A stretch of 46,118 nucleotides of DNA from assembly GCA_005881595.1 (NCBI GenBank), contig VBBY01000062.1, positions 1 through 46,118 on the forward strand, in the 5' to 3' direction. The position numbers and the translations under genes were made by a program. The notes under the pieces were generated by a model, which saw only the letters and a program-made list of their open reading frames with translations, had not been told where the DNA came from and searched no databases. Below are positions 7,857-15,551 of this stretch, piece after piece. Positions within the stretch are counted from its first letter, which is position 1, and the number at the start of each line of letters is the position of its first letter. This stretch comes from Betaproteobacteria bacterium (GTDB lineage Bacteria > Pseudomonadota > Gammaproteobacteria > Burkholderiales > SG8-39).

Positions 7857-8822
7857 ATGAAATGCGCGTTCGCGCTAACGCTTATCGCTGCTCTGCAGGC
7901 CGCGCTCCCGGCACACGCGCAACCCTATCCGTCCAGGCCGATCCGCCTCATCGTGCCCTATGCGGCTGGCGGCACCTCCGACATCCTCGCCAGGCAGATC
8001 GCGCCGAAGCTGAACGAGGCCTGGGGCCAGCCGGTGATCGTCGAGAACAAGCCGGGCGCGAACGGCAACGTCGGCGCGGACTTCGTGGCCAAGAGCGCTG
8101 CCGACGGCTATACGCTGCTTCTCACCGACCTCGGTGGCCTGGTCATCAGCGCGAGCGTCTATCCCAAGCTGCCGTTCGACCCGTCGCGGGATTTCTCACC
8201 GGTGGCGATGGTCTCGTATTCGCCGCACGTGCTCGCCGTGCACCCGTCGGTTCGCGTCAACAGCGTGAAGGAGCTGATCGACATGGCGAGAGCGCAGCCC
8301 GGCAAGCTTAATTTCGCGATCTCGGGCATCGGCGGGGCGCCGCAGCTCGCGGGCATCGAATTCGCGCAGCGCACCGGCATCCAGTGGACCTACATTCCGT
8401 ACAAGGGAGGGTCCGATGCGGTCACCGCCGTGGCTGCTGGTCAGGCCGACGTTCTCTTCAACGGCATGCTCGCCACCTGGCCCTCGGTGCAAGGCGGCAG
8501 GCTCAGGGCGCTGGCGATCTCGAGCGCGCAGCGCGTCGCCGCGGCGCCCGACACGCCGACCGTCGCTGAGCAGGGCCTGCCCGGCTTCGAGACCGGCTCG
8601 TTCCAGGGCGTGGTCGGACCCGCCGGCATGCCGCGTGCGAGCGTGACGAAGCTGAACTCGGAGTTGATCAAGGTGCTCAATTCGGCGGAGATGAAGGAAC
8701 GCTTTGCGAAACAGGGCACGGAGGTGCGCGCCGGCGCGCCTGAAAGCCTCAGCGAGTGGCTGCGCACCGAGCAGGCACGCTGGGCCCGCGTGGTCAAGGC
8801 ATCGGGGGAAAAGTTTGAATAG
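7857..8822 (+). CDS. Bug/TctC-family tripartite transporter substrate-binding protein
   Basis: A 321-residue periplasmic solute receptor. The ATG at 7857 starts a clear signal peptide (about 1-21, ending AHAQ). The mature protein has the Bug signatures [16 protein letters not shown] near its start, then [30 protein letters not shown] and [15 protein letters not shown]. Bug proteins capture carboxylic acids for TctAB-type permeases, but many are orphans, as here: no TctA/B gene is present. Its last 8 bp overlap the TTG start of the dehydratase-aldolase gene, so both are in one operon. The likely ligand is the acid consumed by that enzyme, which is inference. Confidence 0.92.
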
Positions 8823-11238
8823 GAAAAGGCCCGAGGAGCTGCGCAGCTACCGCTGGTACGGCGCGCGCGATCTGCGCGCATTCGGCCATCGCTCGCGCAC
8901 CGCGCAGATGGGCTACAACCGCAGCGACTACGCCGGCAAGCCGGTCATCGCCATCGTCAACACCTGGTCGGACATCAATCCCTGCCACACCCATTTCCGC
9001 CAGCGCGCCGAAGAGGTGAAGCGCGGCGTCTGGCAGGCGGGGGGCTTTCCGGTCGAAATGCCCGCGATGTCGCTCGCCGAGCCGATGCAAAAACCGACCA
9101 CCATGATGTACCGCAATTTCCTGGCGATGGAATGCGAGGAGCTGCTGCGCTCCTATCCCGCCGACGGCGCGGTGCTGATGGGCGGCTGCGACAAGACCAC
9201 GCCCGCCCTGGTGATGGGAGCAACCAGCATGAACCTGCCGGCGATCTACGTGCCTGCCGGCCCGATGCTCAAGGGTCACTGGCGCGAGAACACGCTCGGT
9301 TCGGGCTCGGACACGTGGAAATACTGGGCGGAGCTGCGCGCCGGCAATATCAGCGAGCACGACTGGCAGGAGATCGAGGACGGCATCGCGCGTTCCCCGG
9401 GCACGTGCATGACGATGGGCACGGCAGCGACCATGATGTCCATCGCCGAGACCCTCGGGCTCGCGCTCCCCGGCGCCTCGTCCATCCCCGCGCCCGACTC
9501 GAACCACTCGAAGATGGCGACCCTCGCCGGCAAGCGCATCGTCGAGATGGTGTGGGAAGATCTCAAGCCACGAGATATTCTGAGAAAGGAGTCTTTTGAT
9601 AACGGCATCGTGGCGCTGATGGCGATGGGCGGCTCGACTAACGCCCTCATACACCTGGTCGCGATGGCCGGCCGTGCCGGCGTGAAGCTGCCCCTGGAAC
9701 GCTTCAACGAGTTCTCCGCGAAAACGCCGCTTCTCGCCAACGTGCGCCCGTCGGGCGACAAGTACCTGATGGAGGACTTCTACTACGCAGGCGGTTTGCG
9801 CGCCTTGCTGTCTGAACTGGGAGATCTCCTGGACTTGAATTGCAGGACGGTAACTGGGAAAACCCTGGGGGAGAACCTGCAAGGTGCGAAGATCTACAAC
9901 CAGGACGTCATCCGCCCGCGAACAAGGCCGCTCAAGGCTTCCGGCGGCCTGGTCGTGGTGCGCGGCAACCTGGCGCCGAACGGCGCTGTAATCAAGGCTT
10001 CGGCCGCCACGCCCAAGTTACTTAAGCATGCTGGAAAAGCGGTGGTCTTCGAGGACTACAACGACATGGCAGCGCGCATCGACCGCGACGACCTGGAGGC
10101 GGATGCCGACTCGGTGCTCGTGCTGCGCAACGCCGGGCCGCTGGGCGGTCCGGGGATGCCTGAGTGGGGCATGCTGCCGGTGCCGAAAAAGCTGCTCAAG
10201 CAAGGCGTGCGCGATATGGTCCGCGTGTCGGACGCGCGCATGAGCGGCACCAGCTATGGCACCTGCGTGCTGCACGTTGCGCCGGAGTCATTCGTCGGCG
10301 GGCCGCTCGCGCTGGTGCGAAACGGCGATCTCATCGAGCTAGACGTGGAGCGCCGTGTCCTGGACCTGAAAGTGACCGATGAAGAACTGCGGAAGAGAAA
10401 AGCGGCCTGGAAACCCCCTGCCCGCAAGTACGCGCGCGGATACGGCGCCGTTTTCTCGCAGCACATCCGGCAGGCCGACGAGGGCTGCGATTTCGATTTC
10501 CTCGCGCTCGTCTCGGGCCGGCCGCAGATCGGCCTGTGGTCAAGCCTGTCATCCAACTACAGCGTCGAGGTCATCGCCGGCGCTGGCTTTGACTGGATCC
10601 TGCTCGATACCGAACACTCACCGAGCGATCTCGAGAGCGTGCTGACGCAGCTGCAAGCGGCGGCGCCCTACCCCACCCACCCCGTAGTGCGCGTCCCATG
10701 GAACGACATGGTGACCATCAAGCGCATGCTCGATATCGGCGCACAGTCGCTGCTCGTCCCCTACGTTTCCACGCCGGCTGAGGCGAAGCAGGCGGTGTCC
10801 TATACGCGTTACCCGCCTGCGGGCGTACGTGGCGTTGCGGGCACCACGCGCGCCACGCGCTTCGGCCGGATCAAGGACTACGCCAAGCGCGCGCACCATG
10901 AAATCTGCCTGCTGGTGCAGGTCGAAACGCAGCAGGCGCTCGACAATATCGAGACCATCTGCGCCATCGACGGCGTCGACGGGGTGTTCGTCGGCCCGGC
11001 CGACCTGCACGCCTCGCTCGGCCATACCGGCGAAATCGCGAATCCCAAAGTGAAACCGCTCATCGACGAGGCGGTCCGGCGCATCCGCAAGGCGGGCAGG
11101 GCGCCCGGAATCCTGACTCCCAACGAAGCCGACGCGCGCCACTGGCTCGAGTGCGGCGCGCTGTTCGTGGCCGTCGGGGCCGACGTCGGCATACTCGCGC
11201 GCGGCGCCGAAGCGCTCGCCGCCAAATTCAAGTCCTGA
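8815..11238 (+). CDS. IlvD/Edd sugar-acid dehydratase fused to HpcH/HpaI aldolase
   Basis: An 807-residue single frame joining two whole catabolic enzymes. Residues ~1-562 are an IlvD/Edd dehydratase, closest in look to the sugar-acid (arabinonate-type) branch, with the Fe-S Cys ligands C57 (SDINPCH), C125 (GGCDKTT) and C198 (PGTCMTMG). Residues ~563-807 are a class II HpcH/HpaI 2-keto-3-deoxy-acid aldolase with [18 protein letters not shown], the metal-binding Glu of LLVQVETQQ and [14 protein letters not shown]. The join ([19 protein letters not shown]) removes only the dehydratase's last few residues and the aldolase's first ~10. Such enzymes catalyse consecutive steps: sugar acid to 2-keto-3-deoxy acid to pyruvate plus an aldehyde. 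The TTG start at 8815 has a good GGGGGAA site and overlaps the receptor gene. Confidence 0.88.
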
Positions 11239-12181: not shown

Positions 12182-12261
12182 AAACATTTAGAGTAAGTGG
12201 TCACTCCTGTTCAACCGTTCATTTTGGCGAGGTGAAACGTCATTTGAGAACCATTGACGAT

Positions 12262-12280
12262 TGTAATGAGAACGATTATC
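12262..12280 (+). promoter_or_regulatory. Fur box upstream of the FTR1 gene
   Basis: TGTAATGAGAACGATTATC matches the classical 19-bp Fur consensus at 14 of 19 positions and ends 10 bp before the FTR1 ATG. This places iron-dependent repression directly on the start of the iron permease cluster. Another 80 bp of AT-richer, gene-free sequence lies between it and the preceding operon. Confidence 0.75.
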
Positions 12281-12290
12281 GTTATATCTA

Positions 12291-13052
12291 ATGGTTCAAA
12301 TGCTGCTTGTCACGCTGCGCGAAGGTATCGAGATGTTCCTGATCGTGGCGCTCGCCGCGACGTATCTCAGAAAGTCCGGCCGCGTCGCGCTGCTCTCCGC
12401 GGTGAGCTGGGGGACCGCGACGGCTGTCGCCGCTTCCGTAGTTCTAGGAACCTGGCTCGCCGAGGTCGCCGTCCTGCCGAAATGGGAGGCCTTGCTGGCG
12501 CTGGTCGCCGCGGTGCTCGTCATTACCATGGTGATCTACATGCTGAAGGCGGCCAAGCACCTGCGGCGCGACATCGGTGCGAGGCTGGAAGCCGCGGCCG
12601 TGCGGACCGGCCGAGGAGCATGGCTCGGGGTGTTCCTGTTCGTCGTACTCATGGTGACCCGTGAAGGGATGGAGACAGCCTTCATCACCGCGTCACTCTT
12701 CCGCCAGACCGACACCGCGCACTTCGCGTTGGGCGCCTTCGGCGGGCTTAGCCTGGCGGCCGCCTTGGCGTGGACTTGGGTACGCTATGGCCAGCTCGTC
12801 AACCTCGCGCTGTTCTTCAAGGTAACGTCCGTCTTCCTAGTGTTGTTCGCTTTTCAGCTGGTCATCTATTCTTTCCACGAGGCGACCGAGGCGAACCTTT
12901 TGCCGCTTGACAACGCATATTGGCACGTGGCCACCGAGCCTTATGGCCCGGAGGGCCAGTACGGTGCGCTGCTCACGTACTTGCTCGTGCTCGTGCCAGC
13001 CGCCTGGCTCATGTTCGCGGGCTTGAAAACGAGACTCGCTGCCGCGCGTTGA
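12291..13052 (+). CDS. FTR1/EfeU-family iron permease
   Basis: A 253-residue, seven-helix inner-membrane protein with the two iron-binding REGxE motifs of the FTR1 family: REGIE at residues 10-14 and REGME at 124-128. FTR1/EfeU permeases import iron across the cytoplasmic membrane, usually together with a redox partner (multicopper oxidase in fungi, EfeOB in enterobacteria). No EfeO, EfeB or P19 gene is adjacent. Instead a barrel-like protein, a flavoprotein and an ApbE flavin transferase follow. The ATG at 12291 lies just behind a strong Fur box, so expression is predicted to rise under iron limitation. Motif assignment is direct; the redox-partner idea is inference. Confidence 0.92.
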   Translation: MVQMLLVTLREGIEMFLIVALAATYLRKSGRVALLSAVSWGTATAVAASVVLGTWLAEVAVLPKWEALLALVAAVLVITMVIYMLKAAKHLRRDIGARLEAAAVRTGRGAWLGVFLFVVLMVTREGMETAFITASLFRQTDTAHFALGAFGGLSLAAALAWTWVRYGQLVNLALFFKVTSVFLVLFAFQLVIYSFHEATEANLLPLDNAYWHVATEPYGPEGQYGALLTYLLVLVPAAWLMFAGLKTRLAAAR

Positions 13053-13113
13053 GCGGCTCTGCCAGCCAGCGGCCGCAAGCCAGCCCTTCCTAGTTCACGA
13101 GAGGAGGTCTGGC

Positions 13114-13998
13114 TTGTCTTTCCGATATGCAGTTCTCAGTGTCGCTGCTCTCGCTTTGGGCCAACCCGCGGTCGCTGGCGACTCGCCGTTCGGCTATGTC
13201 TACACCACGGATACTCATCCGAGGGGTCAGCGCGAGTTCGAGCAGTGGATCACCAGGCGTCATGGACACTCGCGTGGCGACTTCGACGCGTGGCAGTTCC
13301 GCACAGAGCTCGAGTACGGCGTTACCGACAACCTGCAAACGGCGCTGTACTTGAACTACGACAGCGTCGATGCCTTCCGCAACCGCCCGGACGGCAGCAC
13401 CGGTCCTGGCGCGTTCGTGCCTGACGGCGTCGATCCCGATGCCCGTTACAAGAGCAGCTTTCTCGAGTCGGTCTCGAACGAGTGGATTTATCGGCTCCTG
13501 AGCCCGTACAAGGACCCGATCGGCCTGGCCCTGTACGTCGAGCCGACCTATGGGCCGAAGAAACGCGAGCTCGAGGGCAAGATCATCTTGCACAAGAACT
13601 TCCTCGATGACCGCCTCGTCTGGGCGGGCAACTTTAGCGCCGCGCAGGAACACGAAAAGTTTCATGGCGAATGGGAGCGCGAGGGAGAGCTGGAATTCAC
13701 CACCGGCGTTGCCTATCGCTTTGCGCCACGCTGGCACGCTGGTGTCGAATACCGCAACCATCGCGGCTATGGCGGATCGAGTTTCTCGAAAGCCAACCGC
13801 AATTACTCGGCGAGCTTCTTTGGCCCGTCCCTGCACTACGCGGAGAAATCGTGGTGGCTGACGGCGAGCTTCCTGAACCAGCTCGGCAATGCGAAAGGCT
13901 ACACGGACCAGGCGCGCGAGGACATCATCGGCGGCCGCTTTTACGGCGAGCATCACGAGCGCAACGAGCTGCGCGTCAAGGTGGGCTTCAGCTTCTGA
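13114..13998 (+). CDS. putative outer-membrane beta-barrel protein in the iron/flavin cluster
   Basis: A 294-residue protein starting at TTG 13114 behind a strong GAGGAGGT site. It has an N-terminal signal peptide (about 1-21, ending AVAG), then many alternating-polarity strands (FRTELEYGVTDNLQTALYLN, TTGVAYRFAPRWHAGVEYRN, SASFFGPSLHYAEKSWWLTA) and a terminal aromatic residue (RVKVGFSF), all typical of outer-membrane barrels. I do not recognise a characterised family; it resembles uncharacterised DUF proteins found beside FTR1 and FMN-binding genes. The downstream start codon overlaps its stop (TGATG), so it is coupled to the flavoprotein gene. A role in iron or electron passage at the outer membrane is only an inference from position. 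Confidence 0.75.
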   Translation: MSFRYAVLSVAALALGQPAVAGDSPFGYVYTTDTHPRGQREFEQWITRRHGHSRGDFDAWQFRTELEYGVTDNLQTALYLNYDSVDAFRNRPDGSTGPGAFVPDGVDPDARYKSSFLESVSNEWIYRLLSPYKDPIGLALYVEPTYGPKKRELEGKIILHKNFLDDRLVWAGNFSAAQEHEKFHGEWEREGELEFTTGVAYRFAPRWHAGVEYRNHRGYGGSSFSKANRNYSASFFGPSLHYAEKSWWLTASFLNQLGNAKGYTDQAREDIIGGRFYGEHHERNELRVKVGFSF

Positions 13999-14477
13999 TG
14001 GTGCCCTGGCCTGCTTTCGTTGCTGCGCCACTCGCCATATTTGCCCCGGCAGCCCATGCGGCCGTGTATCTGAGCGTCGAACAGGCGCAGCAGGCCATCT
14101 TTCCCGGCGCCCGTTTCACCGTGGAAGCGCTCGCTTCGCCAGATGCGGCTCATCGCCAGCTATGGAGGGTCTCTCAGGGGGGCTGGTTCATCGTCGACGC
14201 CGTGTTCGGCAAGCATGAGCTGATCACCTATGCCGTCGGGCTCGGGGCCGACGGCAGCGTGCGAGGCGTCGAGATCCTGGAGTACCTCGAAAGCTACGGT
14301 TACCAGATCCGCGACCCTGCGTGGCGGCGCCAGTTTGCCGGGAAGACTGCTCGCGACCCTCTGAAGCTCGACCAGGATATCCGTAACATCAGCGGCGCCA
14401 CGCTTTCGTGCCGCCACGTCACCGATGGCATCAAGCGCCTGCTTGGCTTCTATGAGTCGGCCCTCAAGCAGCGTTAG
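13998..14477 (+). CDS. exported FMN-binding protein with SGAT flavinylation motif
   Basis: A 159-residue protein. Residues 1-22 form a signal peptide (ending AAHAA). The mature part is an FMN_bind domain of the NqrC/RnfG kind ending in ISGATLS, where T135 is the expected residue for covalent FMN attachment through a phosphoester. The acidic residue often found three positions before the SGAT Ser is Arg here (R129). It directly precedes, and overlaps, an apbE gene, whose product attaches FMN to such Thr residues. The protein should therefore be a periplasmic one- or two-electron carrier. With an FTR1 permease two genes upstream, a ferric/ferrous redox step is the natural hypothesis, not a demonstrated fact. 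Confidence 0.88.
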   Translation: MVPWPAFVAAPLAIFAPAAHAAVYLSVEQAQQAIFPGARFTVEALASPDAAHRQLWRVSQGGWFIVDAVFGKHELITYAVGLGADGSVRGVEILEYLESYGYQIRDPAWRRQFAGKTARDPLKLDQDIRNISGATLSCRHVTDGIKRLLGFYESALKQR

Positions 14478-15180
14478 GCGGGCGCGTCCGCTGCTCGGCA
14501 CCCTGGCGGAAATTCGCCTGCCGCGAGAGGCTTCGGGCGCCATCGAGGGGGGCTTCGAAGCACTCGAGCGCGTACACCGGCTGATGAGCCGCCAGGACTC
14601 TGAGAGCGATGTGGCAAGAATCAATGCCGCGTCAGCCGGCAGTGTCATTAGCATCGATCCCTGGACCATGGCGGTGCTGCGACGGGCAAAGGAGGTCCAC
14701 GCGCTCACGGGCGGGCTGTTTCACTGGGAGCCGCTCGAAATGCTCGAATCAGCCGTCCATGTGAAGCAGCGCGTGCATCTTACGCTCGATGGCATCGCAA
14801 AGGGATATGCGGTCGACCGCGCGGTCGACGCACTACGCCGCGCGGGTGCAGATTGCGGCGTAGTCAATGCTGGCGGCGACCTGCGGGTATTCGGCAGGCA
14901 GCCCGAGCCCATTTACGTGCGACATCCGCGCTCTCCAGGCAAGCTGGTGCATATCGGCCAGGTGACGGAAGCAGCCGTCGCCAGCTCGGGGGCTTACTTT
15001 TCCGCCACGGAGTTCTTCGACCCCAGAACAAGAAAGGTCGCGAAACCGGGCCACGGAGTCACTGTGATCGCGCTTGACTGCACGACCGCCGATGCGCTCA
15101 CCAAGCCCTGCCTGCTTGAGCCGACCCGCTCAAACGTCATTGCCGCCCGTTTCGGGGCCCTTGCGGTGGTGATGCAGTGA
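14452..15180 (+). CDS. apbE: ApbE-type FAD:protein FMN transferase, short form
   Basis: A 242-residue protein related to ApbE, which transfers FMN from FAD to Thr in SGAT-like motifs of exported redox proteins. Family features are the start ARPLLGTLAEIRL, the cofactor loop LDGIAKGYAVDRAVD, VNAGGDLRVFG and the C-terminal TADALTK metal/active-site stretch. It is shorter than typical ApbE (300 or more): no signal peptide or lipobox is visible from ATG 14452, and ~50 residues are missing between the TGGLFHWEP and GIAKGYAVD blocks. The compact form may be active in the cytoplasm or use another start; an in-frame ATG lies 27 bp upstream. It overlaps the FMN-binding gene, its predicted substrate. 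Confidence 0.87.
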   Translation: MSRPSSSVRRARPLLGTLAEIRLPREASGAIEGGFEALERVHRLMSRQDSESDVARINAASAGSVISIDPWTMAVLRRAKEVHALTGGLFHWEPLEMLESAVHVKQRVHLTLDGIAKGYAVDRAVDALRRAGADCGVVNAGGDLRVFGRQPEPIYVRHPRSPGKLVHIGQVTEAAVASSGAYFSATEFFDPRTRKVAKPGHGVTVIALDCTTADALTKPCLLEPTRSNVIAARFGALAVVMQ

Positions 15181-15551
15181 GTACGCTGCGCCGCGCATTT
15201 CGTGGCCTGCTCTATGCGACGCTCGCCGTGCTTCTGGTCTCCGGTGGGCTCTGGGAATGGCTGCGCTCGGCGCTGCTGATGAAGGTCCATGGCGGCACCG
15301 CGATGCTGGCGCTGCTTCTGCTCGGGGCAGCCCTTGCCTCTCACGTGCCGACCGGGTGGAAGGACGCTCGCTACAAAGGGACTGGGATTGGGATTCTCGC
15401 GGCCGCGGCGTGGCTGATTATCAGCGGCCATTTGCTTTATTACTCGGGCGACGAGGCAGTTCGCCAAGCCGCGAGCTACAGCCACCTCGGCGCCGGCATC
15501 GGATTGCCGGTACTTCTCGGCCTCCATCTCTGGCGTAGGGCGCTGGTGTAG
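15177..15551 (+). CDS. small four-helix membrane protein with conserved-looking His residues
   Basis: A 124-residue membrane protein whose GTG start overlaps the apbE stop (GTGA). Four hydrophobic segments are visible (about 10-27, 37-56, 69-88, 104-119). His residues sit in or at the ends of them: H38, H56, H85, H103 and H117. That pattern is reminiscent of small b-type cytochromes (DUF4405 or cytochrome b561-like), so it may bind haem and pass electrons from the quinone pool or cytoplasm to the exported flavoprotein. The family assignment is tentative. It is the last gene of the Fur-box cluster; the next gene has its own ribosome binding site after 23 bp. Confidence 0.7.
   Translation: MSTLRRAFRGLLYATLAVLLVSGGLWEWLRSALLMKVHGGTAMLALLLLGAALASHVPTGWKDARYKGTGIGILAAAAWLIISGHLLYYSGDEAVRQAASYSHLGAGIGLPVLLGLHLWRRALV

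Follow-up and report, generated by a model that had tools for sequence, protein, structure and literature searches.

We propose that a row of five genes in a betaproteobacterial genome is a Fur-repressed iron-acquisition operon built around a four-gene envelope iron reductase that would carry electrons from quinol to FMN and feed the adjacent permease. We give this reading a probability of about 60%. The genes occupy positions 12291–15551 of the 46,118-nucleotide stretch of DNA that was analysed (the window). All of them lie on the plus strand, tightly packed, in the order FTR1 permease, DUF6662 barrel, SGAT FMN-binding protein, ApbE and a small four-helix membrane protein. Coordinates, Pfam matches and motif scans agree with the first-pass annotation, which had described this order and spacing with a Fur box in front of FTR1. 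The annotation had also treated the five genes as one unit. Their co-occurrence stands, but the conserved core consists of the last four genes, and FTR1 is one of several exchangeable partners.

Conservation and neighbourhood of the four-gene module

An alignment of the flavoprotein was used to scan genome contigs of bacteria and archaea, which gave 406 relatives. The best 80 of these 406 were fetched and combined with loci from genome searches, giving 105 loci for comparison, many of which are mutually related. The barrel, the flavoprotein, ApbE and the small membrane protein are all present in 88 of the 105 sampled loci, nearly always in that order, which bears out the co-occurrence elsewhere on which the annotation had staked its interpretation. 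Carriers belong to the Pseudomonadota, Verrucomicrobiota, Omnitrophota, Myxococcota, Bdellovibrionota and Thermodesulfobacteriota; a spread sample of the phylum comprised 398 genomes, of which about 13 have a strong match. Culturable carriers include Duganella, Methylobacillus and Sulfuriferula. The module is thus widespread across phyla, and it is previously undescribed: the openly licensed literature that we searched yielded no description of it.

At least one iron gene (hemP, bacterioferritin, FeoB or FTR1) adjoins the module in 44 of the 105 loci. Individual counts are 36 for hemP, 20 for bacterioferritin, 19 for FeoB and 5 for FTR1, raw values that are inflated by kinship. The identities of the FeoB, P19, Ferritin, hemP and BFD neighbours were confirmed by Pfam. 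Depending on the lineage, FeoB lies upstream or downstream of the module, and no fewer than six changes along the flavoprotein tree are needed to account for its distribution; if a genome has one or two FeoB genes, we estimate that chance alone would place FeoB next to the module in about one locus.

In 61 of the 105 loci none of the iron genes tested adjoins the module, and most loci have no iron transporter next to it. This would also suit a Fur-controlled general periplasmic redox chain, acting in oxidant protection or quinol balance in place of an iron-rich cytochrome, with iron not being the acceptor. The substitution of flavin for iron is discussed in the excerpts of PMC8238504. We consider this explanation unlikely, given the repeated adjacency to FeoB, FTR1, Bfr and P19 and the insertion of permeases within the operon, between hemP and the barrel, in relatives. 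The module also includes a predicted haem protein, and would therefore save no iron.

HemP is a small protein of Fur-controlled haem-uptake operons. Where present, it is the first gene of the operon, and is followed directly by the barrel in 18 loci, by FeoB in 7, by Bfr in 7 and by FTR1 in 3. Its position, nearly always directly upstream, could indicate that the system handles haem or haem iron, the barrel importing a haem-derived compound that the cytochrome and flavin pair reduces. HemP/HmuP proteins regulate haem-receptor genes, and ChuP of C. violaceum binds haem (PMC9131926). Against this, the permease neighbours belong to inorganic-iron families, and the recurrent neighbour clusters included no recognisable TonB receptor for haem, haem oxygenase or ABC transporter for haem. 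The genome of the window, as far as its assembly shows, has no hemP and has kept the module nonetheless. Altogether, a role in haem handling appears improbable.

FTR1 was considered as the defining partner of the module and rejected, as it is found in only 5 of the 105 loci, with FeoB, bacterioferritin or nothing in its place in most relatives. Within the window's family it heads the module in three further genomes (G853, G860 and G862; two of the same genus, one of another). There, hemP precedes FTR1, and bacterioferritin and Bfd-like genes diverge from the other side of a Fur-box promoter. A Thiobacillus locus (L066) has P19, FTR1 and a polyferredoxin-like protein, in this order, in front of the module.

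Promoter and Fur boxes

A sigma-70-like promoter (TTGACG-N17-TATCGT, positions 12254–12282, plus strand) was identified by alignment with the promoters of the three family relatives. Consensus scoring places Fur box 1 at 12262–12280 on the plus strand (14/19), and an overlapping Fur box 2, offset by 6 bp, at 12268–12286 on the same strand (15/19 on the better strand). These are the two highest-scoring sites of the entire window. Twenty trials with Markov-simulated windows produced no site of at least 14/19; when the local intergenic stretch was simulated, 0.6% of the copies reached 14/19.

Fur box 1 is kept in G860, G862 and G853. The blocks TTGAC, TGAGAA and ATTA..GT are invariant in the alignment with the three relatives, so that the TTGAC element and the Fur/-10 region are retained in all four genomes. 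In the window, FTR1 starts about 8 bases past the -10 element, because hemP has been lost from the operon. Across the module carriers, sites of at least 14/19 occur in 17 of 84 regions upstream of the barrel, versus 0.6 expected in shuffled sequence, and their density there is about 17-fold higher than elsewhere in the same loci. The conservation of the Fur box, a second point on which the annotation had made itself refutable, is borne out by this enrichment and by the shared layout in the relatives. The genome encodes one Fur-family protein. Judging from these sites, the operon is most likely Fur-repressed and is predicted to be switched on under iron shortage.

Protein components of the locus

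The permease gene (12291–13052, plus strand) matches the FTR1 family PF03239 with 94.7 bits against a cut-off of 25.3 (E=8e-27) and encodes two RExxE motifs of the form REGxE, REGIE at residue 10 and REGME at residue 124. Its score with the EfeU model is 128, below the cut-off of 255. It is the only FTR1 of the 97%-complete host genome, in which FeoB, P19, EfeO and EfeB were not detected. P19 (PF10634), Peptidase_M75 (EfeO) and Dyp_perox_N (EfeB) have no match across the genome, and FeoB_N matches of at most 47 bits were judged to be other GTPases, since true FeoB proteins score 150–184 bits in this analysis. These absences agree with the earlier suggestion that the module stands in for EfeO/EfeB or P19. 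However, it is not strictly a replacement for P19/FTR1, because one Thiobacillus carries it beside both.

The second gene (13114–13998, plus strand) encodes a DUF6662 protein (PF20367, 73.5 bits against a cut-off of 27, E=3e-20). The AlphaFold2 model (pLDDT 91.7) contains 12 strands and an N-terminal segment, and its top structural matches are a COG4313 channel and FapF (Z about 22). The protein is accordingly predicted to be an outer-membrane channel, in line with the outer-membrane role assigned to the barrel at first pass. Several relatives, one of them of the same genus, encode a coiled-coil porin-like protein at this position. G862 is one such case; its barrel appeared to be missing, a reading that was dropped, as the different protein occupies the same place. 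This exchange argues that an outer-membrane channel belongs to the function. The cargo would be ferric iron or a ferric chelate.

The flavoprotein (13998–14477, plus strand) contains an FMN_bind domain (PF04205, E=5e-10). Its N-terminus is hydrophobic and resembles a signal peptide, and in a hydropathy-based prediction 84 of 90 homologues exceed 1.6. The SGAT motif recognised earlier is present as ISGAT with Thr135, and the threonine is invariant in 90 of 90 sequences. An FMN_bind domain with this threonine, adjoining ApbE, is the arrangement of ApbE-flavinylated extracytosolic electron-transfer systems. Thr135 is thus a predicted flavinylation site, probably occupied by FMN.

The ApbE flavin transferase is encoded at 14452–15180 on the plus strand (alternative start at 14425; PF02424, E=3e-38). 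Its GIAKG and NAGGD motifs are invariant. The protein lacks a signal peptide, and almost none of 81 homologues has a hydrophobic N-terminus ahead of the RPLLGT start, which is conserved. It differs in this from the exported ApbE of extracytosolic flavinylation systems, with its presumed substrate being exported. Two explanations suggest themselves: the flavoprotein receives its FMN in the cytosol and is exported afterwards, or ApbE crosses out of the cytoplasm by some other means.

The last gene (15177–15551, plus strand) encodes a four-helix membrane protein of 124 residues, labelled hypothetical in one RefSeq record. The protein has no significant Pfam match of its own. Among 59 relatives, 28 match Ni_hydr_CYTB at E<=0.1 (best 3.6e-7, mostly sub-threshold), a family that the window's own protein does not match, and 21 show weak similarity to DUF4405, mostly under Pfam significance. 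The model has four helices (pLDDT 94), as opposed to the six helices of DUF4405. Of the five histidines first noted at helix positions, four are conserved: H38, H56 and H103 are invariant in 83 of 83 sequences and H117 in 82 of 83. His85 is not, being Tyr in most relatives. H38 and H56 are located at opposite ends of TM2, and H103 and H117 at opposite ends of TM4. Such a placement is expected if the protein holds two haems, one towards each membrane face, ligated by H38/H103 and H56/H117, and paired histidines of this kind, for bis-His haems, are a feature of the prokaryotic cytochrome b561 family (Ni_hydr_CYTB). The N-terminal arginines and the basic residues between TM2 and TM3 suggest that H38/H103 face the periplasm.

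Among natural proteins, the structural neighbours of the model are the di-haem cytochromes b FdnI, HyaC and CybB, with the caveat that helical bundles often score high by chance. CybB is the E. coli superoxide oxidase, and its presence among the matches would also be compatible with the general redox chain considered above. A Foldseek search against the PDB was set aside as evidence, as it returned weak matches, mostly to soluble helical bundles (E>0.1); a profile search found no relative among PDB sequences. The histidine pattern, the sub-threshold Pfam matches and the fold point to a di-haem b cytochrome, which fits the membrane haem cytochrome proposed at first pass.

Proposed electron path and relation to known systems

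In the iron-reductase reading, electrons from membrane quinol would enter the minimal four-helix cytochrome b and pass between two haems, held by H56/H117 towards the cytoplasm and by H38/H103 towards the periplasm. The module contains no NAD(P)H domain. The cytochrome would reduce periplasmic FMN that ApbE has fixed covalently to the SGAT protein at Thr135. In the periplasm this FMN would in turn reduce ferric iron, or a ferric chelate, that had come in through the DUF6662 channel, and the permease next door (FTR1 in the window, FeoB in many relatives) would import the iron so produced. Of the interpretation initially offered for the locus, the module, Fur control, the cytochrome and the barrel are supported, but not FTR1 as a defining element, nor strict replacement of its partners.

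The direction of the electrons deserves consideration. Yeast FTR1 works with a ferroxidase (Fet3-Ftr1). By analogy, the flavoprotein might oxidise Fe(II), with electrons flowing through the cytochrome to quinone and Fe(III) passing to FTR1, and some carriers of the module belong to iron-oxidising lineages such as Sideroxydans. We regard this reverse flow as very improbable, because the ferrous importer FeoB is the commoner permease partner and Fur control fits the scavenging of scarce iron. That the module is paired with FTR1 as well as with FeoB speaks for reduction rather than oxidation.

Related flavin-based systems are known. Excerpts of Meheust et al. 2021 (PMC8238504) name five transmembrane components that serve flavinylation, and connect P19-FTR1 clusters with FMN-binding proteins. 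Those clusters resemble our locus in that FTR1 stands beside a predicted flavinylated exported protein. In contrast, the window lacks P19 and adds ApbE, the four-helix cytochrome and the outer-membrane barrel, and in Thiobacillus both systems are found side by side. The PepSY-like and MsrQ-like systems of the same excerpts resemble the module in their link to iron uptake and in that electrons are predicted to reach ApbE substrates across the membrane by way of haem, but use other membrane protein families and DUF2271 or other substrates.

DUF4405 cytochromes and the ferrosome protein FezC were added to the flavinylation systems by Huang et al. 2024 (PMC11334425, excerpts). As with the small protein, a four-His membrane cytochrome is found beside apbE. 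The small protein family is shorter (about 125–170 residues) and is partnered with FMN_bind and DUF6662 proteins, whereas DUF4405 is partnered with Flavodoxin_4 in these excerpts. Neither set of excerpts (PMC8238504, PMC11334425) mentions the four-gene set, DUF6662 or a four-helix cytochrome. EfeUOB likewise has an EfeU-family permease under Fur, but the genome of the window lacks EfeO and EfeB. As for FeoAB, its ferrous permease takes the place of FTR1 in relatives, while FeoB is undetected in the window's genome.

We tentatively advance a broader proposal, which we hold to be possible but rather less than an even bet. The module may represent an undescribed, widely distributed class of envelope iron reductase in which a minimal cytochrome of four helices and two haems works with a dedicated outer-membrane channel and with an FMN protein that receives its flavin from a cytosolic ApbE prior to export. 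This unit would pair interchangeably with FTR1 or FeoB, and would thereby supply the redox step of a bacterial FTR1. Little is understood of how FTR1 and FeoB in bacteria are supplied with iron in the appropriate redox state, and a module beside both permeases suggests a specific electron path that is open to experiment. If correct, the proposal would bring a new type of cytochrome and a partner in the outer membrane into flavinylation systems, and would give DUF6662 and the small hypothetical protein their first functional hypotheses.

FTR1 start and neighbouring fused frame

The predicted -10 element lies only about 8 bases before the start of the iron permease gene FTR1 (window 12283-12300). 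This start occupies the position where hemP, a small iron-linked gene that is lost in the window, begins in relatives. Judging from the sequence, translation of FTR1 may be nearly leaderless. Both domains of an IlvD/Edd dehydratase and an HpcH/HpaI aldolase are contained within a single open frame (window 8704-11238), which constitutes an apparent fusion. An IlvD-like sequence is present in the corresponding neighbourhood of the related genome G860.

Gene content and surroundings of the module

Downstream of FTR1, the module comprises a DUF6662 barrel, an SGAT flavoprotein, ApbE and a small four-helix membrane protein. Among the compared loci, tandem duplications affect the barrel gene (L086, L087 and L105) or the flavoprotein gene (L068 and L073). 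The place of the barrel is taken by a coiled-coil porin in L141, L142, L143 and L145, which is Porin_O_P-like in L142. In a set of Verrucomicrobiota loci that includes L082, L091, L093 and L100, housekeeping genes surround the module; several of these loci have rpoC on its upstream side or rpsB on its downstream side. Plasmids, too, carry the flavoprotein gene together with apbE, one in Bradyrhizobium (L155) and one in Sphingomonas (L156). The latter carries all four module genes in complete order, the last, at the small-membrane-protein position, being annotated as hypothetical.

ApbE and its exported substrate

ApbE (window 14425-15180) lacks a signal peptide, yet the adjoining substrate is predicted to be exported. 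The same pairing recurs across the family's homologues.
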